A stretch of DNA of 64,000 nt from Moorella glycerini (lineage in GTDB: Bacteria; Bacillota; DSM-521; Neomoorellales; Neomoorellaceae): contig NZ_CP046244.1 in assembly GCF_009735625.1 (NCBI RefSeq), positions 3,360,909 through 3,424,908 on the forward strand. The letters run 5' to 3'. The notes beneath the pieces are model-generated. The model was not told the origin of the DNA. It worked only from the letters and a program-made list of their open reading frames with translations, and searched no databases. Positions 1 to 54,043 of the stretch are shown here, piece by piece; position 1 is the stretch's first letter, and each line of letters starts with the position of its first letter. The position numbers and the translations under genes are program-made.

Positions 1-428
1 TCGCCGCCGCTTAAGGTATAAGGAAAACGCCGGAGAAGACGATCGATGCCCAACAAAACCACAACGGCATCTAATTCTCTTTCCATCTGCCCGGGAGGCA
101 GTTTTTTATTTTTAAGCCCAAAGACAATATTTTCCCTGACGTTTAAATGGGGAAATAAAGCATAATCCTGGTAAACAAAACCGAAGCACCTTTTTTCCGG
201 CGGCCAAGCGGTAATATTATCTTCCCCCAGCCATATTTCACCGGCATCCGGCGCATACATGCCGGCAATAACCTCTAAGAGGACTGTTTTACCGGCACCC
301 GTGGGCCCCAGAATAACGAAGTACTCTCCCGGGAAAAATTCCAGGGAGATGTCCCGGAGCTGAAACTCCCCTATCTTTTTAGTTATCCGGGATAGCCGCA
401 GCGAGCGCGCGGGCAATCGTTCTTTCAC
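1..428 (-). CDS. modC: Molybdate ABC transporter ATP-binding protein ModC (partial, runs off window)
   Basis: ATPase that would energise molybdate/tungstate import with the adjacent ModB permease and ModA binding protein. About 142 N-terminal codons are inside the window. The Walker A motif GPTGAGKT lies near residue 40, a Q-loop (VYQDYALFP) follows, and the sequence leaves the window just at the LSGG signature. The reading frame opens with GTG at 428 to 426, and this start overlaps the TGA stop of modB in a GTGA arrangement, which suggests translational coupling. The C-terminal half, including any TOBE/Mop domain, is not visible, so the exact oxyanion preference cannot be judged. The call rests on the operon as much as on the fragment. 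Confidence 0.88.
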   Translation of the reverse strand, partial: MKERLPARSLRLSRITKKIGEFQLRDISLEFFPGEYFVILGPTGAGKTVLLEVIAGMYAPDAGEIWLGEDNITAWPPEKRCFGFVYQDYALFPHLNVRENIVFGLKNKKLPPGQMERELDAVVVLLGIDRLLRRFPYTLSGG

Positions 429-1222
429 AGGCCCGGCACCCGTTCGTAAAGCTTTACCCCTGCCCGTTCAAAAACGGCCAGGGAAATCACGGCGATCAGG
501 ATCAGGATGGCCGCCGAAGCCATCAGGGCTTCCATATCACCGGTAGCCATATTCAAATAGATAGAAATAGGCAGGGTTTCCGTTTTAAACCTGGTAGCGC
601 CGGCCAGCATAAGCACCGCCCCAAATTCCCCCAAGGCCTTACCCCAGGTAAGAACCAGCCCTGCGAGGATATTATTTCGTATTAATGGTAAAGTAACCTT
701 TAGAAAAGCCCGGGCCGGAGTACAGCCCAGGGTCCTCGCCACATATTCGAGGCGGATATCCACGGCCTCGATAGCAGCCTTCAGGACGGTAATCAAGGCA
801 GGAAGATTGACGAAAAATTGGGCCAGGATGATCCCGGTCACGGTAAACACAAAACGTAAACCCATCCTGGCCAGGATTTCGCCAAAGGTCGTAGTGCCAA
901 AAAGCAGGAGCAGGCAAACGCCGGAGACAATGGGCGGCAGGGTTAAAGGGATTCTGAGAAGATTGGCTGCTATACCCCGGCCCGGCAGATTGTAACGAGC
1001 CAGGGTATAGGCCACCGGCATAGCTACCAGCAGGCAGGCGGCTGTTGAAACAATGGAGGTCAAGAGGCTGAGCCTGATGGCGAAGACCAGTTCCGGCATC
1101 TTTAGCGATAGAGGTATAAAGGGCAAACCCCTTACCAGGACGGTACCTACGGCGGCTAAAATAAATAGCAGTACCAGGAAAGTTACCAGCACGTTAAAGG
1201 TTTTAAACAACCTTGAACCCAA
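425..1222 (-). CDS. modB: Molybdate ABC transporter permease ModB
   Basis: Integral membrane permease of a class I molybdate/tungstate importer. It has about six hydrophobic segments and the EAA-loop region (ARTLGCTPARAFLKVTLPLI) that contacts the ATPase. A frame with ATG at 1267 exists, but it has no ribosome binding site and would overlap modA by 28 bases. TTG at 1222 has GGGGAGG seven bases upstream and leaves a 17-base gap after modA, so it is preferred here. It sits between modA and modC in one minus-strand operon behind the riboswitch at 2862-3041. Family assignment is firm; the substrate (Mo or W) is inferred from the neighbours. Confidence 0.9.
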   Translation of the reverse strand: MGSRLFKTFNVLVTFLVLLFILAAVGTVLVRGLPFIPLSLKMPELVFAIRLSLLTSIVSTAACLLVAMPVAYTLARYNLPGRGIAANLLRIPLTLPPIVSGVCLLLLFGTTTFGEILARMGLRFVFTVTGIILAQFFVNLPALITVLKAAIEAVDIRLEYVARTLGCTPARAFLKVTLPLIRNNILAGLVLTWGKALGEFGAVLMLAGATRFKTETLPISIYLNMATGDMEALMASAAILILIAVISLAVFERAGVKLYERVPGL

Positions 1223-1239
1223 GTTTTCGCGCCTCCCCA

Positions 1240-2067
1240 CTAACGGGCCACCGGTTTGTATCCCCATTTTTGCCAGATCTGGTAGGCCGCCGACGAAGTG
1301 AAAAATTCGGCCAGTTGCTGGGCCAATTCTTTTTCCTTGGAACAGGTCAGTACTGCCACCGGAACTGTTTTGACATATTCCTTTAGTTCGGGCACTGGTA
1401 CCAGCTCAAGCTTGTCTTTTGCCCCCTGGCAATTTTCTTCCCAGATCACGGCAGCGTCGGCCTGCTTGGTGCTTAGATACACCACCAGCTCGTTTGCCGT
1501 CGGCGTCCTGACTACCACATTTTTATTGACGTTTTCCAGAAGGCCGTGCTTTTGCAGAAGCTGGTCGGCCAGCTTGCCGATAGGATTGGCCTGGGGGTCC
1601 CCCAGGGCTACTTTCACTCCCGGACGAGCCAGGTCGGCTAACTTGCGGATGCCGGCAGGATTCCCCTTGGGAACAGCCAGTACCGGTAGGTGATAAACGA
1701 CATTCTTTTCCCATGCTACCAGGTTTTTTTCTTTAACAGGCTTTAATTCCGCTATATCCCCCGGCAGGTAGACGTCTCCCTGCCCGGTTAACAGGATCTG
1801 GTTGTTAAGCTGCGCTGCGCCGCCAAAGGTATAGGTAAGCTTTAACCCGCTTTGAGCTTGAAAAGCGGCACCGATTTCCTCGACCGGGTTTTTCAGGCCG
1901 GCGCCGCTATAAACTAAAAGGGAGCGCCCGGCCGCGTTGTCCGCCTTATCATTCGTTCCTGCCTGGCCCTTCGGACTCTCATCTTTACTGCTACCGCAGC
2001 CGACCAGCACCAGCAACCCAAACAAAAGTAGACCCAGTAATAGCGTGACAGATTTTGAAACCCTCAC
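1240..2067 (-). CDS. modA: Molybdate/tungstate-binding lipoprotein ModA
   Basis: Extracytoplasmic binding protein that delivers the oxyanion to ModBC. The N-terminus has a hydrophobic signal segment followed by a lipobox ending in VGC, so it should be a lipid-anchored protein on the outside of the membrane. The mature part has the type II periplasmic-binding fold signatures of the ModA family (VYSGAGLKNP near the start, later AVIWEEN). An upstream in-frame ATG at 2091 exists, but GTG at 2067 has GGGAGG about eight bases ahead and starts directly before the basic signal-peptide head, so it is chosen. It lies 27 bases after the DUF364 gene in the same operon. Confidence 0.9.
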   Translation of the reverse strand: MRVSKSVTLLLGLLLFGLLVLVGCGSSKDESPKGQAGTNDKADNAAGRSLLVYSGAGLKNPVEEIGAAFQAQSGLKLTYTFGGAAQLNNQILLTGQGDVYLPGDIAELKPVKEKNLVAWEKNVVYHLPVLAVPKGNPAGIRKLADLARPGVKVALGDPQANPIGKLADQLLQKHGLLENVNKNVVVRTPTANELVVYLSTKQADAAVIWEENCQGAKDKLELVPVPELKEYVKTVPVAVLTCSKEKELAQQLAEFFTSSAAYQIWQKWGYKPVAR

Positions 2068-2094
2068 TGTTATTCCCTCCCATAATTCCAATTA

Positions 2095-2823
2095 TCAATG
2101 CCCAAAAGAGCAATACTGCTCGTAACCGGCCAGGCAGGCTATGCCGCTGATGGTTACCCCGTAAAAGACAATCGGTTTCCGGCCCATTATCGCCGCCAGG
2201 GTATCGTTTACCGCGGTTGTACCGGTCGCCAAGACCAGTTCGCTCCATTCAATAATTTCTTCTGTATGCCGGGCGTCTTCTATCATAACTCCGCCTTTAC
2301 GTTGCCCGACGTTATCCGGGTCCAGGTCGGTTACCCGGATCGGGAAATGACCGGCCAGGCTGGCCACCATGGCCGGCTGCAGGCCGATAAAGGCAATCCG
2401 GGGGTTGCCGAAACGTTCCCGGACGTATTCTACCAGGCGGGAGGCACATTGGGCCGGTTCTTGGTCGCGGCAGTGGACGGTCTTGTCTACCAGTTTGAGA
2501 TGCCGCATCACGGCATTCAAAGTGGCGATAAATACGGCTCGCTCATAGTTATTACGTAACGGCAGGGCCAGAACTTCCTTCAGGGTGCCCTGGTAATTCC
2601 CCGGCATATCGGTATACGCCTGCCCACAAGCGTCTTTAAAGTTGGCCTGGATCATAAATTCTTTACCCTTTAAAAGAGGAAAGTCCTGGCGTTCCGGCCG
2701 GCCGATGGCTTCCTCGGGGGTCAGGGGCCGGGCGCTGATCACCTGTATTTCTTCCTCCCCGGTCAGGTGCCTGTCTTTTACCAGCCCGTAAAATTTTTCT
2801 CTGATGCCTTCTAAGAATTGCAT
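2095..2823 (-). CDS. DUF364 (putative heavy-metal chelation / Rossmann-like) protein, first copy
   Basis: About 242 residues in the DUF4213/DUF364 architecture: an N-terminal alpha/beta region, then a Rossmann-like half (PRIAFIGLQPAMVASLAG, later TGTTAVNDTLAAIMGRKPIV). No enzymatic function is established for the family; Pfam describes it as putative heavy-metal chelation. ATG at 2823 follows GGGGATGG and is preferred over an upstream in-frame start at 2859. It is the first gene after a Moco-type riboswitch and is followed by modABC. A second DUF364 gene at 20191 has the same position relative to another such riboswitch and a different transporter. A role in Mo/W handling is inferred from this repeated linkage. 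Confidence 0.8.
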   Translation of the reverse strand: MQFLEGIREKFYGLVKDRHLTGEEEIQVISARPLTPEEAIGRPERQDFPLLKGKEFMIQANFKDACGQAYTDMPGNYQGTLKEVLALPLRNNYERAVFIATLNAVMRHLKLVDKTVHCRDQEPAQCASRLVEYVRERFGNPRIAFIGLQPAMVASLAGHFPIRVTDLDPDNVGQRKGGVMIEDARHTEEIIEWSELVLATGTTAVNDTLAAIMGRKPIVFYGVTISGIACLAGYEQYCSFGH

Positions 2824-2861
2824 CTGAAGCCATCCCCTTTCCTGGCTAATTAGCAACAAAT

Positions 2862-3041
2862 TAAAAACCCCGTCTCCACGGCGGAGCGGGGTTTAACTGA
2901 AAAAGCCATAGCTCTCTCTTATAGCTAACCCCCTCCTTTTCAATACCTGGAAGGCATACCCGTTTCCCGGTACACCCCGTGGACCAGCGGTCCAGGCCAG
3001 CCTGCCATAGGTTGCTCCTTTAGGCCAGGAAGGCTCGGAGG
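2862..3041 (-). promoter_or_regulatory. Moco-type riboswitch with terminator, upstream of DUF364-modABC
   Basis: The minus strand carries CTCCGAGCC at about 3040-3032, an AAGGAGC block, and the hairpin core ACGGGGTGTACCGGGAAACG followed by GGTATGCC. An outer CCTCC/GGAGG stem (3041-3037 with 2936-2932) closes the element. This matches my recollection of the molybdenum-cofactor (Moco) RNA motif, including its GAAA-bearing hairpin. Downstream at 2893-2862 is a GC-rich hairpin followed by a T tract, so control by premature termination is likely. The copy at 21103-21281 shares these blocks with different linkers. Sensing of tungsten cofactor instead of Moco is possible; the sequence cannot decide. 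Confidence 0.8.
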
Positions 3042-3146
3042 ATATTTTATGTTATGTCCATCTTTCTAATTTGTCTATTCTCCGCCAAGCGGCAAATTCC
3101 TGCCGCGGCCGTTAAAATATCGTGCCAGGAGGCGAAGTATTTTTTA

Positions 3147-3818
3147 CTATATATCAGTGTCTAAAATTCCTATTTTAATAGCGTGCTTAACCAGTTCGGC
3201 ATAATTATGGGCGCCTAGCTTACGCATTATATTAGCCCGGTGTTTTTCGACCGTCTTCTTGCTGATGGTTAATAACCTGGCGATATCGCGGTTACTTACT
3301 CCTTCTACTACCAGCCTAAATATCTCCTGCTCACGGTGGGTCAAACGTTCATAAGAAGGCTCTGCCCGTTGGTTCCTGCACTGCTTTAAGTACTCCGAAA
3401 TAAGTGTGCTTGATATATCGCTGCTAAGGAAATATTTCCCCCGCGTTACACTCCTAATTGCCTCTACGATTTCTCTCCCGGGAGAATTCTTGTGTACATA
3501 ACCGAGGGCGCCGGCGTCCAGGGCCCTAAAAACAAATTTTTCATTGCTGTACATGGATAAAATCACAACCTGGGTTTGCCAGCCGTCATTTTCCCTGGCA
3601 ACTTTTAGTTGGTAGGCAACCTCCAAGCCGTTGAAATCGGGAAGGGAAATGTCAAGCACCATAACTTGTGGCTTTAAACGTTTGGCGATTTCCAGGGCCT
3701 CGCCTGCTTGGCCAGCTTCCCCAATTACCTCCATATCAGACTGGGCATTAATTATTCCCAGCAGGCCGTCGCGGACTAAAGGGTGGTCATCAACAATGAT
3801 AACATTAATTTTGTCCAT
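3147..3818 (-). CDS. NarL/FixJ-family response regulator
   Basis: Receiver domain at about residues 4-120 with the acidic pair (VDDHP), phosphoacceptor Asp in VLDISLP and the conserved Lys in VHKNS, then a LuxR/NarL helix-turn-helix at about 155-215 (LTHREQEIFRLVVEGVSNRD). It should be a DNA-binding transcription factor phosphorylated by a HisKA_3 kinase. ATG at 3818 lies two bases after the stop of the upstream kinase remnant, so the two were translationally coupled. The regulator itself appears intact, but its partner is broken by a stop codon and by a deletion that removed the 5' part of the kinase and probably the promoter. It may be poorly expressed or recruited by another kinase. Confidence 0.9.
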   Translation of the reverse strand: MDKINVIIVDDHPLVRDGLLGIINAQSDMEVIGEAGQAGEALEIAKRLKPQVMVLDISLPDFNGLEVAYQLKVARENDGWQTQVVILSMYSNEKFVFRALDAGALGYVHKNSPGREIVEAIRSVTRGKYFLSSDISSTLISEYLKQCRNQRAEPSYERLTHREQEIFRLVVEGVSNRDIARLLTISKKTVEKHRANIMRKLGAHNYAELVKHAIKIGILDTDI

Positions 3819-3820
3819 GA

Positions 3821-4566
3821 TTAATCATTCCTGCGCTCAAATGGTATTTCCACTCTCACGGTTGTTCCCCTGCCGGGCTTTGAGTGTATATACAAAGTGC
3901 CACCTAGTTCTGCGACCCTCCGCCGCATACATTTAAGGCCCAATCCCTGGTAGTTGCTGCCTTCCTAAGGTTCAAACCCTTGTCCGTCATCAGCAATCAC
4001 TGCAATCAATTTGGGATAAACATAACTCAGCTTTAAAGATACCCGGCTTGGTTGAGCATGTTTGGAGATATTATTTAATGCCTCCTGGAACACCCGAAAA
4101 AGAGCTACTTCAATATTGGGAGGCAATCGTTCCGGCCCGACGCCGTATATTTCTAAATCGACTTTTAAACCACTGGCAATTGAAAACTGCTCGCTCATCC
4201 ACTCTAAAGTATTCTTAAGTCCCAAGGATTCCAGCATCGAAGGCATCAAGTCAAAGGAAATACGCCTTACTTCTTCGCCTATCCTCTCAATTCCGCCAAT
4301 GATTTCTTTGATATTTAATTTTATTTGGGGCAGGTTTATTTTTTCTTTATGGGACAACGCGGCTAGTACCGATTCTAATTGCAATTTCTGAGCTACGATA
4401 TCCTGACCAAGCCCGTCATGTAAGTCCCTGGCAAGCCGCTCCCGCTCTTTTTCCTGCATGCTTATCAACTGGCCGGAAAGCCAATTCAATTCCTTTTCCG
4501 CCAAAATACGTTCGGTAATATCAAAATAAAGTTCTACCCTCCCTTCACGGAAAGGTCCAGCGCCGA
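3821..4566 (-). pseudogene. Remnant of a PAS-containing NreB/DegS-type sensor histidine kinase
   Basis: The readable frame begins inside a PAS domain (GRVELYFDITERI), continues through a HisKA_3 dimerisation box (RERLARDLHDGLGQD) and an ATPase N-box, and reaches DGQGFEP. There an in-frame TAG (3965-3967) interrupts it. Beyond the TAG the same frame resumes with EGSNYQGLGLKCM and GGTLYIHSKPGRGTTV, the G2 region and C-terminal end of the kinase, up to TAA at 3821. The 5' part is missing because the sequence fuses at about 4566-4575 to a truncated group II intron. Two independent lesions argue for a decaying gene. An isolated 179-residue product (4504 to 3965) could still be made but would lack the end of the ATP-binding fold. 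Confidence 0.85.
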
Positions 4567-5442
4567 TCTGGCCAGGACCCTTTCTCCTGCCCGTTTGCTT
4601 TTGACGTAGATGTTGCAGTCATCGGCGTAACGGACGAACTTGTGGCCCCTCTTTTCCAGTTCTTTGTCCAGGTCGTCCAGGAGTATGTTGGCCAATAACG
4701 GGCTTAAGGGTCCGCCCTGGGGCGTTCCTTCTGCCGTCTCCATGACCACTCCGTTTACCATGACGCCTGCCTGGAGATAGCGGCGGATAAGGGTAAGTAC
4801 CCTCTTATCTGCCACTTTCCGGGCCACCCGGGCCATGAGGATGTCGTGGTTTACCCGGTCGAAGTATTTCTCGATGTCCAGGTCCACGGCCCATTCGTAT
4901 CCTTCTTCTACGTATTGCCGCGCCTTCTTTACCGCATCATGGGCTTTCCTTCCGGGACGGAACCCGTAGCTGGCCTCTGAGAACTGCGGTTCGAAGATGG
5001 GCGTCAATACTTGCAGGAGGGCCTGCTGGATTAGGCGGTCCATTACGGTGGGTATCCCTAACATCCGTTTGCCTCCCCCGGGTTTCGGGATTTCGACCCG
5101 GCGCACGGGCTTCGGTCTGTAGGTTCCCGCGAGCAGTTCTTCCCGGATGCGCGGCCACTCGGCGCGTATTTGGTCCCGCAACCGTTCGGTCGGGATGCCG
5201 TCCACACCGGGCGCGCCTCCGTTCCGCTCTACCCGTTTCAGCGCGGCCAGCATGTTCTCCCTGGCCACCACCTGCTCCATCAGGCCGCTACCTTGGCCTC
5301 CGCGAGGTGACGTCCCGCTTTGTGCCGGAGAAGAACTCGGCCCTCCCGCGCTCCCCCGTGGCTTCACCACTTCTTCCCGCGGGCAGGCCCCTTGCGGGGT
5401 TTTCTGCTGTCTCTGTCCTTCTCGCGAACGCACCGGTTTCAC
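4534..5442 (-). pseudogene. ltrA: Truncated group II intron reverse transcriptase/maturase
   Basis: 302 codons are open, against 473 in the intact copy at 45641-47062. The reverse-transcriptase palm is present, including the catalytic YADD motif, and the sequence agrees with the intact copy up to AGERV. The last dozen residues (ARSALDLSVKGG) come from flanking DNA beyond the deletion joint. The thumb/maturase X domain is missing, so splicing and mobility functions should be lost. It lies inside the truncated intron. Confidence 0.88.
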
Positions 5443-5840
5443 CTCTGACTTGATGTTCGGGCCTTCCCCTGGAGTTCATGACCCCCAGGGTACTATGCCC
5501 TCTGCTGACTCCTGCCGGTTCAGCCGTACCTTCCGATACGGTTTACCAGCTCTCCCTGGCTTATCCGGCAGGCCTCCCCGGGTAAGAGCGTTAACCTTCG
5601 CCCCGCGCCCGCCCCATATACTCTACCGTCCCTTGGCAGCCTGGGATTTCGCTGTGTTCCGCCAGCTTATCCGAACGGTCTAGCCTCGTATGGGGTTCTT
5701 GTTCATCGGGCCGTGGCTTTGCCTCCGGCTTCCTTCGGATCCCACCTCGCGATGGACACCCTTGCCTTTGGCTAGCAGACTGGTGCTGCCTCGCCTGCAG
5801 TGGACTTTCACCACTAAGTTAACGCCCATGCCGGGCGCAC
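4571..5840 (-). mobile_element. 3'-truncated group IIC intron copy
   Basis: The minus strand begins with GTGCG at 5840, the consensus 5' end of group II introns, directly after TTTTCT and a terminator hairpin. That is the insertion context of class C introns. The sequence is the same length and nearly identical to the intron at 45571-47460 (offset 41620). One clear difference is C/T at 5606/47226; others were not excluded base by base. Homology stops at about 4571-4576, within the reverse-transcriptase gene. The rest of the ORF and catalytic domains V and VI are absent, so it cannot splice or move by itself. The deletion that removed the 3' part also removed the front of the neighbouring kinase gene. 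Confidence 0.9.
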
Positions 5841-14683: not shown

Positions 14684-14715
14684 CCAAAAAAATAAAGGCG
14701 GACTATCTCCGCCCT
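14684..14715 (-). terminator. Rho-independent terminator after the radical SAM fusion gene
   Basis: Stem GGGCGGA / TCCGCC followed on the minus strand by a T-rich run (TTTATTTTTTT). It ends the long metal-transport operon and separates it from the gntR-AOR operon. Confidence 0.75.
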
Positions 14716-14757
14716 TCAATAGTTAATCCACACTAGCTGCCAGTTAATGGCTCCCGC

Positions 14758-16566
14758 CTATTTCCACATCCATTTATTACTAGGTTTTCCAAAAGAGCGG
14801 TTAATGTTGGATATACTAAAATCCGTCGCATAAAATTTCTGATAAAACTCTTCTGCTTCGGCAAAAACATCAAAATTAAATATTTCGGGATGAAGAATAT
14901 TGGCCATATACATCAAACCCAATATCCACCTGGGACTCCCGAAATCCCAACCCGGAGCCGGATGATTATATACTCTTTTATTCCTTACCGCTTCGACGTC
15001 AACACCGGCCTCACAACAATCGGCATAAAAATCTTCAACAGGAGCAGATATAAATGCTGAGATAAATATAATTTGCGGGTTGAGGGCATTCAGTTTTGCA
15101 ACTGAAATTTTCATGCCCGGCCTGCCGCTGCCTTCTATTTCTTTATTAACGCTAATTCCGCCTGCCGCTTCAACCAATTGATTTTCAAAACGTTCCCCTT
15201 TAATGCAAAAAAGTGGTTTGCCCATGGCGTAATATACACGGGGTTTATTGCTGATAAAACGTAAACTTTTTGTAATCAAAGCAACTCTTTCTTCCAGGTA
15301 GGATGCCAGTTCTTCAGCTTTGTTCTCTAGCCGGATTACCCTGCCGAAATATCTGATTGTTTGCATGTACGTTTGCAGGTTTTGCAGGTCACGATGTAGT
15401 TGCGACAACATATTATTACAAAGTACCTCTTCCCAAACCTGCAATACTTTCTTTTTATCGCTAACACCCATGGTAATTAATATTGCTTCCATCATTTCTA
15501 AAGCCCTGGTAAAAGGGTAGCCCCCCTGAAAATCACCTTCCTGGTACTTTGTTTTTGCTAACGTCCCCCTAATACTTTTTAATTCTTGCCCACACCCAGG
15601 ACACGTATTTCCCCTGATTGAACCCGCATCTGCAAATCTCAGTTTTGCCCCCATTGGCCCGTAAAAGTCCCGCTTATAGATGATTTCCCCGCAGCCGGGA
15701 CAAAAGGTATTAAGATAATCGGTGCCGGGAGAATTGAAGAGGTATATATAACTAAGATGTTTTTTCAAGCGCTGGCAAAGTTTTTCCGCCTCCCGTATTG
15801 AGGGCTCCAATAAAGGATCGGCATTTTCCAGCGGGATAAATCGCATTATATGCAGGGGTATATCCTTGGATATTTGAGCTATATGCCGGGCGAGACTTAA
15901 AATTTCTTCTTCATTATGGCGTTGATAAATACAGGAGATCTCAACATGAATACCGCTTTCATAAAGTTTTTTTATATTGCGCAAAACCGGCTTGACCGTG
16001 CTGCCGCCACAGCCACGATACGCCTGGTCAGACAGGCCTTTAACCCCGACATTGATAAAATCCAAATCGCTAATTATTTGAGCTAATGAGGTTTCAGTGA
16101 AATAGGCATTCGTAGAACAACCTACCAGCAGGCCGCAGCTTTTGGCAACTCTGGCGACTTTAATAAAGGTTGGCAAGGAAGCCAGGGGATCGTTCATCAG
16201 AAAAGCAATTCCTATACAATCGTTTTTTATTGCTTCGCTCACTACTTCTTCCGGCGATAGTTTACGTAAGGCTCTGCTGGCAGGATCCATTTCTTTAGCA
16301 ATGACTGTTGAAACACATCCATTGCAATTAAAATTGCACCCCGCCGTGCTAATCTGGAGGAACTTCCCTCCGGGATAAAAATGTAAAATGGGCATTGTTT
16401 CTATCGAAATCGGACAAACAACAAGATAGTTATCGGGATAAAGTTCCGTTATTTCTTGCCCGTTATTTTTATAAAGGCCACACGCCCCTGTTTTGCCTTC
16501 TGGAATTACGCAAGCTCTTTCGCAAATACTACACTTCATAAATCTTACTTCCATATTGTTATCCAT
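14758..16566 (-). CDS. Radical SAM protein fused to a BtuF/FepB-like substrate-binding domain
   Basis: 602 residues. Residues about 10-35 carry a Cys box (KCSICERACVIPEGKTGACG) like that of AmmeMemoRadiSam/PflA-like proteins. The radical SAM cluster motif CNFNCNGC (CX3CX2C) follows near residue 77, then a TIM-barrel-like region. Two CPGCG zinc-ribbon-like pairs occur near 290 and 325. The C-terminal ~170 residues (RVYYAMGKPLF, PQIIFISAF, KRVYNHPAPGWDFGSPR, ILGLMYMANILHPEIFNFD) closely track the C-terminal half of the secreted binding protein at 17237. There is no signal peptide, so this domain should be cytoplasmic. The gene overlaps the methyltransferase by 22 bases and is the last of the operon. 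Function unknown; metal sensing, metallophore synthesis or metal insertion are possible. Confidence 0.85.
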   Translation of the reverse strand: MDNNMEVRFMKCSICERACVIPEGKTGACGLYKNNGQEITELYPDNYLVVCPISIETMPILHFYPGGKFLQISTAGCNFNCNGCVSTVIAKEMDPASRALRKLSPEEVVSEAIKNDCIGIAFLMNDPLASLPTFIKVARVAKSCGLLVGCSTNAYFTETSLAQIISDLDFINVGVKGLSDQAYRGCGGSTVKPVLRNIKKLYESGIHVEISCIYQRHNEEEILSLARHIAQISKDIPLHIMRFIPLENADPLLEPSIREAEKLCQRLKKHLSYIYLFNSPGTDYLNTFCPGCGEIIYKRDFYGPMGAKLRFADAGSIRGNTCPGCGQELKSIRGTLAKTKYQEGDFQGGYPFTRALEMMEAILITMGVSDKKKVLQVWEEVLCNNMLSQLHRDLQNLQTYMQTIRYFGRVIRLENKAEELASYLEERVALITKSLRFISNKPRVYYAMGKPLFCIKGERFENQLVEAAGGISVNKEIEGSGRPGMKISVAKLNALNPQIIFISAFISAPVEDFYADCCEAGVDVEAVRNKRVYNHPAPGWDFGSPRWILGLMYMANILHPEIFNFDVFAEAEEFYQKFYATDFSISNINRSFGKPSNKWMWK

Positions 16567-17180
16567 AATCCGGCTTCACCCCTGTTTATTTCAAATTTAG
16601 AGATTCCCGCTGCCCCCAATGTCTTTACAAAACTCTCCACAGCATTCTCGCCAATATTTTTGTTAATTCTTTCCTGCCAGTTGCTATCTTTTTGCACCAT
16701 CCTGGCATCAATTAACTTTTTTAGTTCGGCATTACCAAAGCCCCCGCCAATAAAGGCTGCGCCCTGGGGAGCGAGTACCCTGTATATTTCTTGAAACGCC
16801 TTTTGCTGATTTTCCCAAAAAAATATTGAACCTCTACTTATTACAAGATCCACTGATTGATCTTTTAACGGGATTTCGTGGACATCACCAAGCAACGTTC
16901 TGGCTCTTTTTTGCAAACCATGACCGGCGATATTTCGTGTCGCTATTTCCAGCATTTCAGGAGACTTGTCAAATAAATATATATACAACTCTGTAATACC
17001 AGCCAGGGCAATCCCCAGATAACCGCCACCGCAGCCGATATCCAGGCAGGTCCCTTTAGTTATGCCCGTTTTTTGTTTTATTTGTTCCGCAATGACAGGA
17101 TAAACCGGAGCAAATACCTCCCGGGCGACCCTATCAAATTCTTCGACATTAATTTCCACTTTAAAGCCCTCGCTTTCCAT
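16545..17180 (-). CDS. Class I SAM-dependent methyltransferase in metal-transport operon
   Basis: 211 residues with a standard class I fold: motif I LDIGCGGGYLGIAL near residue 47, an acidic loop (LFDKSPEML), motif post-I GDVHEIPL, and IYRVLAPQGAAFIGGG. It is of the UbiE/Methyltransf_11 type, whose substrates vary widely, so no substrate can be named. ATG at 17180 is used; the ribosome binding site is weak. It lies 56 bases after the binding-protein gene and overlaps the radical SAM fusion, so the two probably act in the same process, for example modifying a small metal-binding molecule. That is an inference. Confidence 0.83.
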   Translation of the reverse strand: MESEGFKVEINVEEFDRVAREVFAPVYPVIAEQIKQKTGITKGTCLDIGCGGGYLGIALAGITELYIYLFDKSPEMLEIATRNIAGHGLQKRARTLLGDVHEIPLKDQSVDLVISRGSIFFWENQQKAFQEIYRVLAPQGAAFIGGGFGNAELKKLIDARMVQKDSNWQERINKNIGENAVESFVKTLGAAGISKFEINRGEAGLWITIWK

Positions 17181-17236: not shown

Positions 17237-18364
17237 CTATTTCCCCCTGGCCCCGGCCAGAAGGGCATCAGTTTCCTGCTCGGATAAATTATAGTGGTAG
17301 AACCTGGCATAAAAATCCTTGACCGTTGCCACCAGGTTATAATTAAAAACATCCGGATAAAGGAGGTTGGCCAGCCACTTCACCCCGATGATACGGTTGA
17401 CAGAGGGCGGCCGGTCGAACCAGTTGAAGGGCCCGTGAGGAACCTGGTAGACGCGGTGGTTTTTCACAGCTCTAAGGCTCTGCCATTTAGGGTCTTGCAG
17501 GATAGTTTCGTAGGCGCCTCCCTGGGCTACATTCCAGGAGAGAATCACATCGGGATCCCAGGATAGCACCTGTTCCAGGGAAACGGAGCTCATCCCCATG
17601 CCCCCCGGGCCGCGCTGGGGTGGAATGGCCGCCACGTTAATACCGCCGACAAAGTCCAGTACCTGGGTATGCTGGGAAGTAGCGGGATCCGTTTGCAGGC
17701 CGTTGGACCCTTCGGCGTAGTAAACCCGTACCTTCCTATCCAGCGGTATTGCCTTAACTTTAGCGGCAACCTCATTGATAGTGTCCCGGCAATAAGCCGC
17801 CAGTTCCTGTGCCCGCCGTTTATCTCCCAGCAGGTCGCCCATGAATTCATAGGCTTGATCCAGTTTCGTGAGTTCGCCGTCAACCATAACCACCGGTATC
17901 TGCAACTGCTTCTGGATCTGTTCAGCCTGGGAAAGGGCCGTGTTGTCCATGTAGCCCATGGAAACGATGACCTGGGGGTGGATTTTTAAGATCTCCTCGA
18001 TATTGGCCGTGTTTTTAGCATACCAGCCCCCCAGGTTGGGCAATTTCTGGTACTCGGGCAGGATAAACTTTCTCTCTACCTCGTTTAAATCATAGTTCCA
18101 CCCCGCCAGTTTCTCCGGCGCCAGGGTATAAACCATGATGCTCCCCACCGGGCTGGTGGCGAAGACCTTGTTGACTTGGGTTGGAACGGTGACCTGGCGA
18201 CCAGCCATATCGACTATAGTCCTGTTAGCTGCTGCTTGACCGGCAGGAGCCTGGCCGGTTGCTTTCTGGCCACTCCCTTGCGAGCCGCAACCCGCCAGGG
18301 TGGCAGTCAAGATCAGGATGGCCAGGAGCAGGCTAACCCATTTGCAGGCAAAACGCTTCAACAT
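17237..18364 (-). CDS. BtuF/FepB-type metal-chelate substrate-binding lipoprotein
   Basis: 375 residues. A signal segment ends in a lipobox (LAGC), so the mature protein is membrane-anchored outside the cell. The body has the cluster A-II/TroA-like fold typical of B12, iron-siderophore and MolA proteins (DMAGRQVTVPTQVNKVFA, PQVIVSMGYMD, DPDVILSWN, HRVYQVPHGPFNWFDRP). ATG at 18364 follows GGAGGGAAG and overlaps the ATPase end by seven bases. The riboswitch and DUF364 gene upstream suggest molybdate or tungstate as in the class II MolBCA system of Haemophilus. Iron-siderophore or cobalamin transport are the alternatives. Confidence 0.87.
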   Translation of the reverse strand: MLKRFACKWVSLLLAILILTATLAGCGSQGSGQKATGQAPAGQAAANRTIVDMAGRQVTVPTQVNKVFATSPVGSIMVYTLAPEKLAGWNYDLNEVERKFILPEYQKLPNLGGWYAKNTANIEEILKIHPQVIVSMGYMDNTALSQAEQIQKQLQIPVVMVDGELTKLDQAYEFMGDLLGDKRRAQELAAYCRDTINEVAAKVKAIPLDRKVRVYYAEGSNGLQTDPATSQHTQVLDFVGGINVAAIPPQRGPGGMGMSSVSLEQVLSWDPDVILSWNVAQGGAYETILQDPKWQSLRAVKNHRVYQVPHGPFNWFDRPPSVNRIIGVKWLANLLYPDVFNYNLVATVKDFYARFYHYNLSEQETDALLAGARGK

Positions 18365-19179
18365 GTTTCTTCCCTCCTGGTGTCTTTCGGTAATATTTGC
18401 CTACTTACCGGGACGCATACCCGTGTCTCACTGCAACCCGGTATTTCGGCCCGGATTATTTTTACGTCTACGCCGTACAGGCTTTTCAGGTTCTCTTCGG
18501 TCACCGTCTCCTCCGGCCGGCCCAGGCTGTAGACCTGACCCTTCTTCAGAAGCATTACTTTGCTGGCATACAGGAGAGCATGGTCCGGAAAATGCGAGGC
18601 CATAATAATGGCCAGGCCGGTATGAGCCAGCCTCTTAATGTGACTCAGGACCATAACCTGGTTGCCAAAATCCAGGCTGGAAGTGGGTTCATCCATAATT
18701 AAAACTTGAGGTTGCTGGGCTAGAGCGCGGGCGATGAGTACCAGTTGCCTCTCGCCGCCGCTGATCTCGGTATAAACCCGGTCCTGGAGGTGGGAGATAT
18801 TTAACGCAGCCATGGCCTCTTGAACGATTTCCTTATCTTCCGGCGATGGCACGGCGAAAATTCCCAGGTGAGCCGTCCGGCCCATGAGGACCACGTCCAG
18901 AACTTTAAAGGGGAAGGGTGGGGTATGGGCCTGGGGGATATAGCCCATGACCCTGGCTATCCGGGCCTGGGACCAATCGCAGATATTTTCACCCCCGAAT
19001 AGGATTTCTCCCGCCTGTGGTTTTATCAGGCCCAAGATAGTTTTAAAAAGCGTCGTCTTCCCCGAACCGTTGGGCCCCAGCAGGCACATTATTTCCCCGG
19101 ACTCTACCTCCATAGATACCCCGCTGACGACCGCCCGGCCCCAGTAGCCACAGGTTACATCTTTAAGCGTCAGCTTCAT
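18358..19179 (-). CDS. BtuD/FecE-type ABC transporter ATP-binding protein
   Basis: About 273 residues. Walker A GPNGSGKT near residue 38, Q-loop YIPQAHTPP, signature SGGERQL, Walker B VLIMDEPTS and the H-loop MASHFPDHAL are all present, so it should be active. ATG at 19179 overlaps the permease stop in ATGA, with GGAGGGG at normal distance, and is better than the upstream start at 19185. It energises the class II importer formed with the permease at 19176 and the binding protein at 17237. Confidence 0.92.
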   Translation of the reverse strand: MKLTLKDVTCGYWGRAVVSGVSMEVESGEIMCLLGPNGSGKTTLFKTILGLIKPQAGEILFGGENICDWSQARIARVMGYIPQAHTPPFPFKVLDVVLMGRTAHLGIFAVPSPEDKEIVQEAMAALNISHLQDRVYTEISGGERQLVLIARALAQQPQVLIMDEPTSSLDFGNQVMVLSHIKRLAHTGLAIIMASHFPDHALLYASKVMLLKKGQVYSLGRPEETVTEENLKSLYGVDVKIIRAEIPGCSETRVCVPVSRQILPKDTRREETC

Positions 19180-20219
19180 GACCATCCCCTCCGGGTATGC
19201 TGTAACAAATACAGGAAAAAGGGGGCGCCAATCAAAGCAGTGAGGATACCCAGGGGGATTTCCACCGTTGCCAGCACCCGCGCCAGGTCGTCAACCAACA
19301 GCAGGTAGGCGCTGCCCATCAGGATGGTGGCCGGCAATAAAACCTTATAATTGGGCCCTACCACCATGCGGGCCAGATGGGGAACCAGCAATCCCACCCA
19401 CCCAATCATGCCGCTGATGGAGACGCAGGCTGCGGTCATCAGGGTGGAGCACAGGATGACAATCAACCTTAACCCGGCGGTTTCCAGGCCCAGGGCGCGG
19501 GCTTCCTCTTCCCCCAGGGAGAGGACGTTAAGGCGCCAGCGCAGGAGGTAGAGGGGTATTATTCCCAGCAGCACAGGCACCAGGGCCGCATAAACGTCCC
19601 GAGGAGAAATAGACGCCAAGCTGCCCATGAGCCAGAAGGTAATGGCTGGTAATTTATCGTAGGGGTCGGCCAGGTACTTGATTAAGGAAGTACCGGCAGA
19701 AAACAGGGTACCGGTGAGGATGCCGGCCAGGACCAGGACCAGGGCAGGGTCGTGGCGGATCCTGCTGCTTAAGGCGTAAGCCAGAAATACGGCCAGGAGG
19801 CCGAAGAGAAAGGCGCTGACCTGGATGCCGATTACCCCCAGGGAGAAATAAATTGCCAGGGCGGCGCCGAAACCGGCGCCGGCCGAGGCTCCCAGGATGT
19901 CCGGTGAGACCAGGGGGTTTTTAAACATCCCCTGGTAAGCGGCACCGGCGGTCGCCAGGGAGGCCCCGACCAGCATGGCAGCGATAATACGCGGCAGACG
20001 CACCTGGAAGACTACTGTTTCCATAGTGGCCGGCCAGGTGGGTTCGATGGGAAATACCTTTGCCGCCAGAATGGTTAGGAGTTGCCCGGGGGATATGGCA
20101 TAACGGCCCAAGGGAAAAGAGAGCAGGAATGCCAGCAGGGGCAGGGCCGGCAAAGCGATTTCTTTCCAGCGATCCCTGACCAGGGATATATCAGGCGAAG
20201 TTTTCCTGGCCAGCGCCAA
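19176..20219 (-). CDS. BtuC/FecCD-type ABC transporter permease
   Basis: About 347 residues with roughly ten hydrophobic segments and the family signatures GASLATAGAAYQGMFKNPLVSPDILG and GFVGLLVPH-like SGMIGWVGLLVPHLARM. This is the permease type used for B12, siderophores, haem and, in MolBC-A, molybdate/tungstate. The open frame reaches 20240. TTG at 20219, ten bases after GGGGGGAGG, is the best-supported start and overlaps the DUF364 gene end. It is part of the riboswitch-controlled operon 20191 to 14758. Confidence 0.9.
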   Translation of the reverse strand: MALARKTSPDISLVRDRWKEIALPALPLLAFLLSFPLGRYAISPGQLLTILAAKVFPIEPTWPATMETVVFQVRLPRIIAAMLVGASLATAGAAYQGMFKNPLVSPDILGASAGAGFGAALAIYFSLGVIGIQVSAFLFGLLAVFLAYALSSRIRHDPALVLVLAGILTGTLFSAGTSLIKYLADPYDKLPAITFWLMGSLASISPRDVYAALVPVLLGIIPLYLLRWRLNVLSLGEEEARALGLETAGLRLIVILCSTLMTAACVSISGMIGWVGLLVPHLARMVVGPNYKVLLPATILMGSAYLLLVDDLARVLATVEIPLGILTALIGAPFFLYLLQHTRRGWS

Positions 20220-21036
20220 TCGCAGTAAACCTCCCCCCAACCGTTACCTGAACGGCCTGTTCCCGGCTCTGCCTGCTCCTTGCTACAGCAAGCCCTTCAT
20301 CCCGGCTCACCTGAACCATACGGCCGCCGCGCTTGAATATCTCCAGGCAGCCGCCTTCCTGCACCACCCGCCGTATCATCTCTGGTTCCACAACCACGGT
20401 CCCCGCTAGAGTATCAACACCATAATGAAACAACACAGAAGTCAGCGGGGTGCTGGGGCCCACTAGAATAACCCGCGCCCGGCGGCTGAGCTCCACGAGC
20501 CGGGGGAAGGTTTTATTGATCAGAGTGGTAGCGGTGATAAAGACATAATCCTGCTCCGGGAGGATATACTCACAGGCCGGGTCGGGTAAATCGCCCTCGC
20601 GGGGACGGCGTTCTAAAATCGTAAGTTTACAGCTGCGCGCCAGGGGGTCCAGGTCGGGAAAATGGCCGATAACAGTTACCTTTTTACCCCGCACCTGTTC
20701 CTGAAAGCCGGTAAAAGCGCTCACCTGGGGCTGGCTGCGCAAAGGCCGGCCACCGAGGCTCTCTACTTGTTCGGGCGTGTTCAATACAGAATTTATGGCC
20801 GCCAGGCCCAGGGCGGCTTCGAAATTGTTCCAGGACTTAATGTACTTCGCCAGTTCCCGCACGGGCATGCCTTTTATTTCCCCGGCCAGCTTGATGCGCG
20901 GATGGCCCTCCAGGGGCGTCATCACCAGGCCGGTAGCCCGGGAACGGACCAGGATCCAGTTAAGGCCGACGATGCAATCTTCTACCTCCAGATCCGGCGG
21001 TACCGCCGCGATTAATTCATCATAGATTTCCCACAT
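20191..21036 (-). CDS. DUF364 (putative heavy-metal chelation / Rossmann-like) protein, second copy
   Basis: 281 residues with the DUF4213 plus DUF364 arrangement: N-terminal MWEIYDELIAAVPPDL and SWNNFEAALGLAAINSVLN, then a Rossmann-like half (KKVTVIGHFPDLDPLAR, VFITATTLINKTFPRL, ILVGPSTPLTSVLF). It is paralogous to the protein at 2095, sharing the order of motifs but low identity. It is the first gene after the riboswitch at 21103 and is followed by the BtuFCD-like importer. Enzymatic activity is unknown. Its repeated pairing with Mo/W-type importers suggests a cytoplasmic step in oxyanion or cofactor handling. Confidence 0.82.
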   Translation of the reverse strand: MWEIYDELIAAVPPDLEVEDCIVGLNWILVRSRATGLVMTPLEGHPRIKLAGEIKGMPVRELAKYIKSWNNFEAALGLAAINSVLNTPEQVESLGGRPLRSQPQVSAFTGFQEQVRGKKVTVIGHFPDLDPLARSCKLTILERRPREGDLPDPACEYILPEQDYVFITATTLINKTFPRLVELSRRARVILVGPSTPLTSVLFHYGVDTLAGTVVVEPEMIRRVVQEGGCLEIFKRGGRMVQVSRDEGLAVARSRQSREQAVQVTVGGRFTAIGAGQENFA

Positions 21037-21102: not shown

Positions 21103-21281
21103 AAAACTAAAGCCCCACCTCAGGAGGGTGGGGCTAATAAAAGCCATAATCAGCCATTGATCAGCCACCTCCTTATACACGAACCTGGGAAGGCATACCA
21201 GTTTCCCGGTATACCCCGTGGGCCTCGCAGCCCAGGCCGGCCACCATAGATCGCTCCTTAGGTTATTCCGGCTCGGAGATG
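21103..21281 (-). promoter_or_regulatory. Moco-type riboswitch with terminator, upstream of DUF364-BtuFCD operon
   Basis: The minus strand carries CTCCGAGCC (about 21277-21269), CTAAGGAGC, and the core ACGGGGTATACCGGGAAACT followed by GGTATGCCTTCC. An outer stem pairs ATCTCC with GGAGGT (21172-21167). A strong hairpin AGCCCCACC / GGTGGGGCT (21135-21111) with a T-rich tail follows. It shares its conserved blocks and order with the element at 2862-3041, while the variable arms differ. It should switch off the metal-transport operon when cofactor is plentiful. A Moco versus tungsten-cofactor preference cannot be told from sequence. Confidence 0.78.
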
Positions 21282-21378
21282 AGAATATTTTATTTTATGA
21301 CCTTAAGTCTAGTTAGACTATATTCCACATACGTTTTAAAATTCCTGCCTATCGGCGTTAAATTCTTTCCTCTGCGTT

Positions 21379-22011: not shown

Positions 22012-23258
22012 TTAAACGACCTGGGCGACTTCCCTTACCTCGAGTCCCAGCTTCCGGGCCTCAGCAATAATTTTCTTGATCCGAAACCTTTCTTGCTTTT
22101 GTTTGGCTTTCTCAAATGCAGTCTCGTCGTAGTCTGTACCGTTTTTTAGTAAGTTGTAAATGATTACCAGGAGCTTTCTGGCTAAAGCGATAAGGGCTTT
22201 CTTGGCCCCGCGGCGTTGCTTGACCTTCCAGTACCAGGACGATAAATAGCTGTCGCGTACCCGGGTGATGGACCAGGCAACTTCGCAAAGAATTCGCTTT
22301 AGATAGGTGTTACCGTGGGTGGTGCGAGTGGACTTTTTTTTCCTGCACTTTCATTATTGCCGGGGCTTAAGCCCGCCCAGGAACAGATATGTTCCGCAGT
22401 TTTAAAGCGGCTCATATCGATGCCAATTTCCGCCAGAATAGCGGCGGCAGCGGTTTTGTCAATCCCCGGGATGCCGTCCAGTTGTTCCAGTTGTCTTTGG
22501 TATTGATTAAGTTTTTCCTCCAGCTTTTGCTCTACCAATCGAAGATGCTCGTAGTGCTGATCCAGCCAGCCCAGCAAAAGCTTGAGGAACTCCCTTTGGT
22601 GAACATCCATTTTGCCATTGACAGCCTGCTTGATTTCCTGAAGCTTACTCTTGGCACGACCCTTTACCAAAGTCTCTACTTCCCGGGCGGATATCTTCCC
22701 GTGACGGCAAAGGTGATCCATAATCGCCCGGCCCGATACCCCGAAGATATCGGTGAGGAAGGTGGAGAGCTTGAAACCGCAGCTTTGTAAGTGCTTTTCG
22801 ATGCGGTTCTTTTGCGACGCAATCTCTTCGATAATACTTTTGCGGTACCGGGTTAGATTACGGAGTTCCCGGATAGGTTTGGAGGGGATAAAACTTCCTT
22901 CCAACAATCCGGCGCGTAAAAGGGTAGCTATCCATTCAGCGTCCTTCATGTCAGTCTTTTTACCGGGAACGTTTTTCATGTGCCGGGCGTTGGCAACAAT
23001 CAAAACCATACTGCCGTCAAAGGCTTCTTCCAGGACGTTATATACAGGCTGCCAATAAACCCCGGTGCTTTCCATGGCCACATGGCGGCAGTTCTCTGCT
23101 TCCAGCCAGGCTTTCAGTTCATCAAGCCCGGGCAGAAGGGTGGAAAAGGTGCGGATGGTTTTTGTCGGTTCCTCGCCAATATTGCCTTTTAATAGGCAGG
23201 CAACCACGGTATCTTTATGGACGTCCAAACCACAGCAGGTTTCCAAGATGTCTTGCAT
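22012..23258 (-). pseudogene. IS110-family transposase (frameshifted)
   Basis: The first frame runs from 23258 to 22299 with the IS110 DEDD-type start (CCGLDVHKDTVVACLL), a middle Tnp region (ATLLRAGLLEGSFIPSKP) and the C-terminal Tnp_IS116 motif (IPGIDKTAAAAILAEIG, CSWAGLSPG). At an eight-base A run on the minus strand (22331-22338) the frame is lost. In the alternate frame it continues THGNTYLKRILCEVAWS to a stop at 22012. One extra A would restore a protein of about 415 residues, normal for the family. This may be a homopolymer mutation, a sequencing error, or slippage. The element ends could not be defined because IS110 lacks terminal inverted repeats. Confidence 0.87.
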
Positions 23259-25153: not shown

Positions 25154-26587
25154 GGCTCCTCGCTACATCAAGTGGGTAAACCAAAATCCAGGTTACCAGC
25201 AATAAGATAAGAGATGGTAATAAAGTTAGCCTTATTACGATAGCCACGAGCCTTTGCTTTTCCAGCTTGCAATAGACTGTTGGTACCCTCCAGGAGGCCG
25301 TTAGAAATACGGCTGTTAAACCAACTTAGCACTCCTTCCCAGTGGCGTTTAATCGTTTTAGCAGCCTCAATCATCGGTTGCAGGCGGCAATGGGTCGCCC
25401 AGAAATACCACCGCTTGAGATGGGCTTCGCCACTCTTCCGATCAGGCTGGTTAAAAAGATCCTGGAAGGCCAGCTTGATGCGATAGGCTCGCCCGGTTTT
25501 TAGATGGCAACGGCTAAGGGCCTCTATGCTTGCTTTTTGTTTACTGGTCAGATTGGCAGGGTTCTTAAGCCATTGATAACGGGTCTTCTTTAAAAGGTCT
25601 GTCTCCCGGCTCTCCTGGCGTCGTACTTCATCAAGGGCCTGATTGACTATTTGCATGAGGTGATAACGGTCTAAAACTATGGTGGCATGGGAAAGGTGCT
25701 CCTTAAGGCCGGCAATAAATGCCGGTGAAAGGTCGCAGCACACTTCCTTAATGGCTTCTGGATTACCGTTATGCTGGATAAAATCTTCTACAAAAGCGGC
25801 AATGGTATCCTTAGCTCTGCCCGGGGTGGCAAACAGTAATGCGCCCTTATCTAAATCCACAAACAGGGTGATATAATCGTGTCCTTTCCGGGCGGAGGTT
25901 TCATCGATACCGATGCGGGTTACACCACTAAAGTCGGCCTTGGCTCTGCCGGCCACCACGTAATGTTTTACTACCCGCCACAGCCGGGTATCGTGTTCGT
26001 TTAATAATCTGGCTACGGCAGCCATAGGCATATCTTTGGCCAGGCGCATGAGCTGGGCTTCAAACAAGAGGGTAAACCCGCCCTCCCCTTGAGCCCAGGG
26101 TACCTCAACTCGCCTGACCCCGCAGCCGTGTTTACACTCTACCCGGGGTACACGGGCGATGATGAAGGCTTGATATTGAAAGAAGTCCAGATGGCGCCAA
26201 ACCTGCTTCTCCGTATCATAGGCTTTGGCTCCAGGTTTGCCGCAGACTGGACAATTAAAGCTTGCACCGCGCTCAAAATCAACATGGATATCGAGGCACC
26301 CTTTTTGTTTTGAGAAAATAACTTCGGTAACCTTCCAGGGAGGGGTTAGACCCAGGGCATGGGCAAATAAGGCGTTTTGGTCGGGCAATGCTGGCCACTT
26401 CCTTTACCACCAGTATTGACCAGCATTTCTACACTATAAGGCGATATTCCTTCTTGTTGTCATTTATTTACATAAATGTTAGCAAGTCTTGTAGGCTAAA
26501 ATTACCATTTATGGAATCTCAACATGCTAGAAATAATTTACTTCCTTTTCGATAATTGGTTTTACCCACACGAAATAGCGAGGAGCC
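25154..26587 (-). mobile_element. Complete ISL3-family insertion sequence
   Basis: A 1434-base element bounded by imperfect inverted repeats, GGCTCCTCGCTACATC at the left and its near-complement (read inward GGCTCCTCGCTATTTC) at the right. It is flanked by a perfect 8-base target duplication and contains one intact transposase. Perfect duplications and an open transposase indicate recent insertion. The 301 bases from 26389 to 26689 are the IS right end plus a short flank with no other gene. Confidence 0.92.
25168..26388 (-). CDS. ISL3-family transposase
   Basis: 406 residues. The N-terminal zinc-finger-like region has CPVCGKPGAKAYD and CKHGCGVRR, followed by the DDE transposase core (RIGIDETSARKGHDY, VCCDLSPAFIAGL, IVLDRYHLMQIV) and a C-terminal NGLLEGTNSLLQAGKAKARGY containing the catalytic Glu. 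Length and motifs match intact ISL3 transposases. It occupies most of the element. Confidence 0.93.
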   Translation of the reverse strand: MPDQNALFAHALGLTPPWKVTEVIFSKQKGCLDIHVDFERGASFNCPVCGKPGAKAYDTEKQVWRHLDFFQYQAFIIARVPRVECKHGCGVRRVEVPWAQGEGGFTLLFEAQLMRLAKDMPMAAVARLLNEHDTRLWRVVKHYVVAGRAKADFSGVTRIGIDETSARKGHDYITLFVDLDKGALLFATPGRAKDTIAAFVEDFIQHNGNPEAIKEVCCDLSPAFIAGLKEHLSHATIVLDRYHLMQIVNQALDEVRRQESRETDLLKKTRYQWLKNPANLTSKQKASIEALSRCHLKTGRAYRIKLAFQDLFNQPDRKSGEAHLKRWYFWATHCRLQPMIEAAKTIKRHWEGVLSWFNSRISNGLLEGTNSLLQAGKAKARGYRNKANFITISYLIAGNLDFGLPT

Positions 26588-53704: not shown

Positions 53705-53932
53705 AAAAACCCCAACCACGCCTGCGTAGCTGGGGTAAATTTCTCCCTTTACCTCACCTTCACCATGGCCGTGGTTTAACGGTGCAATCCCACGGGCAGG
53801 TCTCCTGGCTCGGGTTCAACGCTCCCTGCTGCCTTCCCGGGTTTAGACCCCAGTGGCTCCTTTAGCAGGTACTCCCCCTCACAGTGGCGGCACCGCGCCG
53901 GACTTGCACCGGCTTCCCTGGCACCCGCGAGA
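53705..53932 (-). promoter_or_regulatory. Cobalamin (B12) riboswitch with terminator upstream of nrdD
   Basis: Minus strand has GGGAAGCCGGTGCAAGTCCG, GCCGCCACTGT, the B12-box-like AGCCAGGAGACCTGCC, and a closing GATTGCACC, all in the order of adenosylcobalamin/cobalamin aptamers (about 53932-53780). The stretch 53737-53705 is a hairpin (ACCCCA ... TGGGGT) followed by TTTTTAATT, the expression platform. Binding of cobalamin should cause termination before nrdD. It fills most of the 374-base gap between nrdD and the MerR gene. Confidence 0.93.
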
Positions 53933-54043
53933 ATCGTTTTCTGGTAATGTTCGACAAAGAAGAGGCAAATTCCTGCCGTTATAACTATCTCCCCTGGTCA
54001 ATAATGGTTTTTATTCACCAGGAGCTATTTTTTCCTGTTGGAA

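Follow-up and report, generated by a model that had tools for sequence, protein, structure and literature searches.

Moco riboswitches of family RF01055 were described by Regulski et al. (2008; PMC2408646), where aptamers bearing stem P3 correlated with Moco rather than with the tungsten cofactor. With respect to transport, the MolABC system of Haemophilus influenzae (HI1470-1472; binding protein PDB 3PSA) is a BtuFCD-type importer in which MolBC-A imports molybdate, and thus a known precedent for a siderophore-like carrier of this oxyanion; its control was ascribed to an unknown factor (PMC4031551). For the DUF364 protein Dhaf4260 (PDB 3L5O), an action on derivatives of pterin or flavin was put forward, and its authors noted a genome context of the family with tungstate, molybdate, vanadium and iron transport (PMC2954201). 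A 2025 paper on gut tungsten users names, in its available part, three molybdate/tungstate uptake systems, TupABC, WtpABC and ModABC, and not an importer of the type treated here (PMC11980592).

In this study, on the basis of in silico analysis, we report a Moco riboswitch and the six-gene operon that follows it in Moorella glycerini, both located in a window (the whole stretch of DNA analysed) of 64,000 nucleotides. The element has in common with the described RF01055 set the stems P1-P4, the GAAA tetraloop, a Shine-Dalgarno-like P1 strand, a terminator-type expression platform and Mo/W genes downstream, whereas it is predicted to control a siderophore/B12-type importer together with methyltransferase and radical-SAM genes, which the available part of the description does not name (PMC2408646). 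Like MolABC (PMC4031551), the operon encodes a BtuFCD-type importer with a homologous binding protein; it differs in being under a riboswitch, in a lipoprotein of another clade and in three additional proteins, namely a DUF364 protein, a methyltransferase and a radical-SAM/binding-lobe fusion. The DUF364 family of Dhaf4260 (PMC2954201) is here linked to riboswitches two times in one window. We consider it likely that the element is a Moco OFF riboswitch controlling a Mo/W importer operon. Given that a Moco-sensing switch stands in front of it, the operon probably imports molybdenum or tungsten.

The Moco Riboswitch Aptamer and its Companion

The cmscan search (E-values for a search space of 64 kb × 4227 families) placed RF01055 at 21153-21290 on the minus strand, as a full-length match (model positions 1-135 of 135) with E = 2.7e-12 and 61.4 bits, against a gathering cut-off of 36. 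The covariance model thereby bore out the original prediction of a Moco-type riboswitch at 21103-21281, a span that comprises most of the aptamer plus the terminator. Both the MFE and the centroid structures contained P1, P2, P3 and P4 with the GAAA tetraloop, that is, the P3-containing form of the aptamer. The folding energy was unremarkable (z = −1.35; 19 of 200 shuffles equally stable) and therefore the case for the aptamer is based on the covariance model and on conservation. Our own aptamer model R1, built from 24 of 31 alignment rows, with only 19 base pairs and with rough E-values, retrieved both elements of the window. In addition, RF01055 was found on the same strand, 2.8-6.6 kb upstream, for all five lipoprotein copies of the genus with at least 89% identity (one each in genomes G000, G009 and G010, and two in G004).

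The second element of the window, to which the first had been related on the basis of a shared core near position 2862, was likewise recovered as RF01055 (2917-3052, minus strand, 81.6 bits) and has the same design, including the antiterminator layout. It precedes a companion operon (425-2859, minus strand) encoding a DUF364-like protein (PF04016, 33 bits), a ModA-type substrate-binding protein (SBP_bac_11) that scores above the TIGR01256 modA cut-off, and a ModB-type permease (BPD_transp_1). The whole genome holds four RF01055 elements, and the remaining two precede a MoeA gene (locus L073) and a ModA-type gene (locus L074).

The Six-Gene Operon and its Lipoprotein

All the genes of the operon lie on the minus strand. 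The first of them (20191-21036) encodes a DUF4213-DUF364 protein annotated as putative heavy-metal chelation (Pfam 6e-40 and 1e-20), related to Dhaf4260 with an E-value of 1e-50. It is followed by a FecCD/BtuC-type permease (19176-20240; PF01032, 5e-87), the ABC ATPase of the importer (18358-19185; PF00005, 7e-34), a MolA-like class III substrate-binding lipoprotein (17237-18364; PF01497, Peripla_BP_2, with the lipobox LAGC recognized by eye), a SAM-dependent methyltransferase (16545-17180; Methyltransf_11, 2e-21) and the radical-SAM protein (14758-16566; PF04055). The siderophore- or B12-like transporter that had been predicted downstream of the riboswitch is therefore present, as Pfam confirms for its three components; the first gene, however, is that of the DUF4213/DUF364 protein. 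The intergenic distances across the six genes are −50, −10, −7, +56 and −22, a terminator-like hairpin closes the operon at 14694-14716 (minus strand), and 218 bases separate the last gene from a GntR gene. Outside the operon, the GntR gene is accompanied by genes for MoaD-like and ferredoxin-like proteins and by two aldehyde:ferredoxin oxidoreductase genes. Aldehyde:ferredoxin oxidoreductases are usually tungsten enzymes, and these neighbours suggest tungsten, in tension with the P3 stem of the aptamer, which by the correlation of Regulski et al. suggests Moco rather than the tungsten cofactor. Shortly upstream of the riboswitch operon there are two transposase genes on the minus strand, of the IS110 type (22299-23258) and of the ISL3 type (25168-26388).

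The importer would bring Mo or W into the cell by means of its MolA-related lipoprotein, the metal being suggested by regulation and context, and the DUF364, methyltransferase and radical-SAM proteins would work on the same supply line. Among solved structures, phmmer related the lipoprotein to 4pag (5e-54), 4ovk (2e-33) and MolA (3psa, 4e-18, residues 48-358). Comparison of its AlphaFold2 model (pLDDT 89) gave Z-scores of 38.4 for 4pag, 29.7 for 4ovk, 29.1 for 4hn9 of Eubacterium eligens and 27.1 for MolA (298 residues aligned), followed by TM0189 (26.0), YiuA (25.6) and E. coli BtuF (18.6). Hence, MolA was not the nearest solved relative, 4pag and 4ovk being closer by phmmer and 4hn9 by structure. 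Iron-type proteins (4hn9, TM0189 and YiuA) are nearly as close structurally as MolA, so that the cargo cannot be deduced from the fold of the model by itself. A tree of 50 binding proteins grouped MolA with six sequences, five of them Moco-linked (92/78, below the star threshold of the tree tool), and placed the window lipoprotein in another clade, together with 4PAG.

The Radical-SAM Protein Fused to a Binding Lobe

The C-terminal half of the radical-SAM protein (lobe at about 14758-15501) is a homologue of the lipoprotein's C-terminal lobe, as detected by BLASTP (7e-17; 25% over 248 columns) and by hhalign between alignments of 11 and 20 rows (99.6%, E 1.5e-23). When the model of the radical-SAM protein (pLDDT 87.6) was searched with Foldseek, it matched the class III binding proteins 4ovk (1.6e-11), 4pag (6e-11) and MolA (7e-9), and the radical-SAM enzymes PFL activase (PFL-AE; 6e-8) and NifB (2e-7). 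No signal peptide was seen in the protein by eye. The CX3CX2C cluster motif is invariant in all 20 rows of radical-SAM homologues; these come from Bacillota-type records and methanogens, each with a methyltransferase and/or a binding protein next to it. The methyltransferase is in fact a recurrent partner of the radical-SAM protein across loci. Assignment to AmmeMemoRadiSam (TIGR04337) did not hold, with 131 bits against a cut-off of 220.

In the sister genome G004, RF01055 at 1783356-1783493 lies about 220 bases upstream of a methyltransferase and radical-SAM pair with no transporter between them, and the pair therefore appears to be itself under Moco control. A further likeness is to the HutW-type radical-SAM enzymes, which open heme anaerobically, are encoded with heme uptake and are likewise tied to a type II importer of metal complexes; the importer treated here would instead carry Mo or W. 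To our knowledge, no binding-protein lobe has been reported in HutW-type enzymes, and among the titles and abstract openings found in the literature none described this operon or the fusion.

Form of the Cargo

The gene content of relatives bears on the form in which the metal would be taken up. In Sporomusa ovata, the genes for FecCD, a binding protein (46% identity), an outer-membrane receptor with a TonB plug, two methyltransferases (50 and 58%) and a radical-SAM protein (64%) follow each other on one strand. Relatives in Sporomusa sp. KB1, Chlorobi, Telmatospirillum and Desulfobulbus likewise have TonB-dependent receptors nearby, which with S. ovata makes 7 of the 15 diderm-type loci examined (9 of 18 long ORFs). 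Besides the methyltransferase, radical-SAM and DUF364 proteins, the putative modifying enzymes of these clusters include, in relatives, an O-methyltransferase with a dimerisation domain. Its gene stands next to that of DUF364 in Methanolinea and Methanoregula records and, behind the riboswitch, in G009. TonB-dependent receptors fit a chelate more readily than a small oxyanion, and active uptake across the outer membrane together with modifying enzymes is in line with a chelate without proving it; the relatives may also carry other metals.

Since the radical-SAM protein holds what would be a cytoplasmic copy of the cargo lobe of the lipoprotein, we infer that an organic Mo/W complex is at least as likely a cargo as the bare oxyanion. 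That the cargo is an organic Mo/W complex of some kind has, in our judgement, not far from an even chance of being correct; such a complex would be modified or opened inside the cell. Of the original prediction of molybdate or tungstate as cargo, the choice of Mo/W over iron or B12 is upheld by the riboswitch and by comparative genomics, whereas the bare oxyanion loses its preference, given that an organic complex fits at least as well. Going further, we tentatively propose an unnamed system of syntrophs, acetogens and methanogens in which an organic Mo/W complex is imported and processed by the methyltransferase and by a radical-SAM enzyme gripping the cargo through its own binding lobe, Moco riboswitches having recruited the importer and, separately, the enzyme pair. 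We regard this complete scheme as possible rather than likely.

The same caution is due to another account, which may be right but which we would not assume: the operon may encode a plain MolABC system for free molybdate or tungstate, as in H. influenzae, with the methyltransferase and radical-SAM genes as co-transcribed maturation genes of Mo/W enzymes. MolA is among the nearest solved relatives of the lipoprotein and belongs to a molybdate importer (PMC4031551). Moreover, since DUF364 also heads the companion ModA/ModB operon, its presence does not require an organic cargo, and three loci (L118, L119 and L120) consist of riboswitch, FecCD, ATPase and binding protein, with the element immediately before FecCD and none of the other query genes detected. 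However, this account leaves aside the fusion of the radical-SAM protein to a binding lobe and the TonB-dependent receptors of the diderm-type loci, and the window already contains a ModA/ModB-type operon behind a Moco element of its own.

Salvage of an intact pterin-type or organometallic cofactor (Moco, Tuco or a breakdown product) would resemble the control of B12 importers by cobalamin riboswitches. It agrees with an importer of the B12/heme kind standing behind a riboswitch for the cofactor itself, as well as with the proposal of pterin or flavin derivatives for DUF364 (PMC2954201). The relationship with MolA points instead to oxyanions. Moco is, in addition, labile outside proteins, and we consider salvage unlikely.

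Linkage of the Riboswitch to MolA-Like Importers

The lipoprotein was searched in 299 Bacillota genomes, of which 82 gave 131 matches at E ≤1e-20. An RF01055 element lies on the same strand and no more than 6 kb upstream of 35 of these 131 relatives, while the control arrangements gave 3 (upstream, opposite strand) and 4 (downstream, same strand). All 54 PF01497 matches were then classed in 12 genomes picked for holding Moco-linked cases, with those matching the lipoprotein at 1e-20 taken as MolA-like. Moco linkage was found in 19 of 28 MolA-like and 5 of 26 other proteins (Fisher p 4e-4), and linkage to a cobalamin riboswitch within 7 kb in 0 of 28 and 8 of 26, respectively (Fisher p 1.5e-3); the choice of genomes works in favour of the Moco count and not of the cobalamin contrast.

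Both the same-strand linkage and the absent cobalamin linkage make the reassignment of this siderophore/B12-like importer to Mo/W well supported and, on the grounds of regulation and comparative genomics, it probably carries Mo or W rather than iron or B12. An iron-siderophore or B12 importer standing behind a Moco riboswitch by chance would agree with the Pfam and NCBIfam names and with the structural nearness to YiuA and other iron-type proteins. It is nevertheless improbable in view of both linkage results and of the NCBIfam equivalog cut-offs, as the B12 importer models were missed (BtuC, 242.6 against 461; BtuF, 28.8 against 234) and the permease remained under every siderophore/B12 cut-off shown.

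Outside Bacillota-wide counts, the 80 closest named relatives, retrieved with a set of 11 close binding-protein sequences, included nine loci with the element, which was upstream on the same strand in eight, all Clostridia-type records, and downstream in the L221 copies. With the riboswitch upstream in just 8 of 80, the cargo may vary in the wider clade. A recurrent order is riboswitch, FmdE, DUF364, FecCD, ATPase and binding protein (L115, L117), and ModA/ModB-type genes adjoin the operon in L115, L117, L123, L124, L176, L199, L201, L232 and L242. In L116 (1835-11298), a single Moco element heads a cluster that encodes three binding proteins, a pair of methyltransferases and a radical-SAM/binding-lobe fusion.

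Other arrangements were also observed. A cluster of the same content as that of L116 occurs in L144, where no Moco element was found. In sister genomes, the riboswitch operons of L071 (3391-7707) and L154 (4685-8475) hold a pair of different binding proteins, one with about 34-38% and the other with 89% identity to that of the window, and a second DUF364 gene between them and, in L071, also an O-methyltransferase. The genome of the window itself carries a second MolA-like importer (L155, G000 3286000-3296000, at 2117-5759) with an FmdE-like gene and no Moco element nearby. In a genome of the same family, L081 (G015 contig 93, 725-4407) shows a Moco element followed by fragments of binding-protein, methyltransferase and radical-SAM genes in several frames, which points either to an operon copy in decay or to poor assembly.

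Expression Platform and Predicted Switching

The intrinsic terminator of the expression platform (21111-21135, minus strand) consists of a hairpin (−18.5 kcal/mol) followed by a U-rich tail, and is located 40 bases past the start of the 3′ strand of P1 (UAAGGAGG). In the predicted antiterminator (21121-21173, minus strand), obtained from the co-transcriptional fold and duplex energies, this strand (AAGGAGGUGG...) forms a helix with the terminator's 5′ arm. The duplex of AGGAGGUGGCU with that arm reached −14.9 kcal/mol, and 0.7% of 300 shuffles were as good. When the RNA was folded up to the 3′ arm of the terminator, the MFE structure paired the P1 strand with the terminator arm in all 11 genus leaders folded, which include both element types, and termination is therefore predicted when the cofactor holds P1.

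The platform was also sought in a selection of 30 of the leaders fetched, 29 of them preceding MolA-like operons and one (L070) preceding methyltransferase and radical-SAM genes. Terminator hairpins were below −7 kcal/mol in 29 and below −13 kcal/mol in 27 of them, compared with 140 and 36, respectively, of 300 random 197-base stretches from the same loci. The pairing of P1 with the terminator arm beat 95% of the shuffles in 10 of the 29 leaders bearing a hairpin and, within the genus, in just 2 of 6, since a purine-rich strand pairs with a C-rich arm even after shuffling. Altogether, the folding suggests a ligand-OFF switch at 21153-21290. When the cell is short of Moco (or of the tungsten analogue), the P1 3′ strand would bind the terminator's 5′ arm, letting transcription read through; with the cofactor bound and P1 held, the terminator would form and the operon would be turned off.

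A leader-peptide switch is very improbable. It would consist of a 7-codon ORF (MADYGFY; start about 10 bases past the Shine-Dalgarno sequence of P1, stop codon at the terminator) whose translation, once P1 opens, lets the ribosome block the terminator. This reading was set aside despite short ORFs at the equivalent position in 5 of 6 genus elements of this type, because the bases of the ORF sit in the antiterminator helix in 11 genus leaders and because some relatives lack an intact ORF, which is broken in G004_1783356 and without a start codon in several companion-type leaders.

Other Features of the Window

A cobalamin riboswitch (53778-53943, minus strand, 106.7 bits) was found by cmscan in the 64-kb window directly before NrdD (51585-53669) and a radical-SAM gene, and not before the importer operon. 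The radical-SAM gene probably encodes the NrdD activase, and NrdD is presumably a B12-independent backup enzyme. In addition, two near-identical group II introns with reverse transcriptase ORFs lie on the minus strand (4534-5756 and 45571-47376; RF02001/RF01998 at 5460-5756 and 47080-47376), the second among 2-hydroxyglutaryl-CoA dehydratase/activase-type genes.

Significance

The usual annotation of such importers is as iron-siderophore or B12 transporters, and a riboswitch that names the cofactor allows the copies found in many anaerobes to be reassigned. In this regard, assignment to Mo/W has a known precedent in MolABC. If the cargo is a chelate, anaerobes would possess a Mo/W counterpart of siderophore uptake, for which the radical-SAM/binding-lobe fusion would be a testable entry point.
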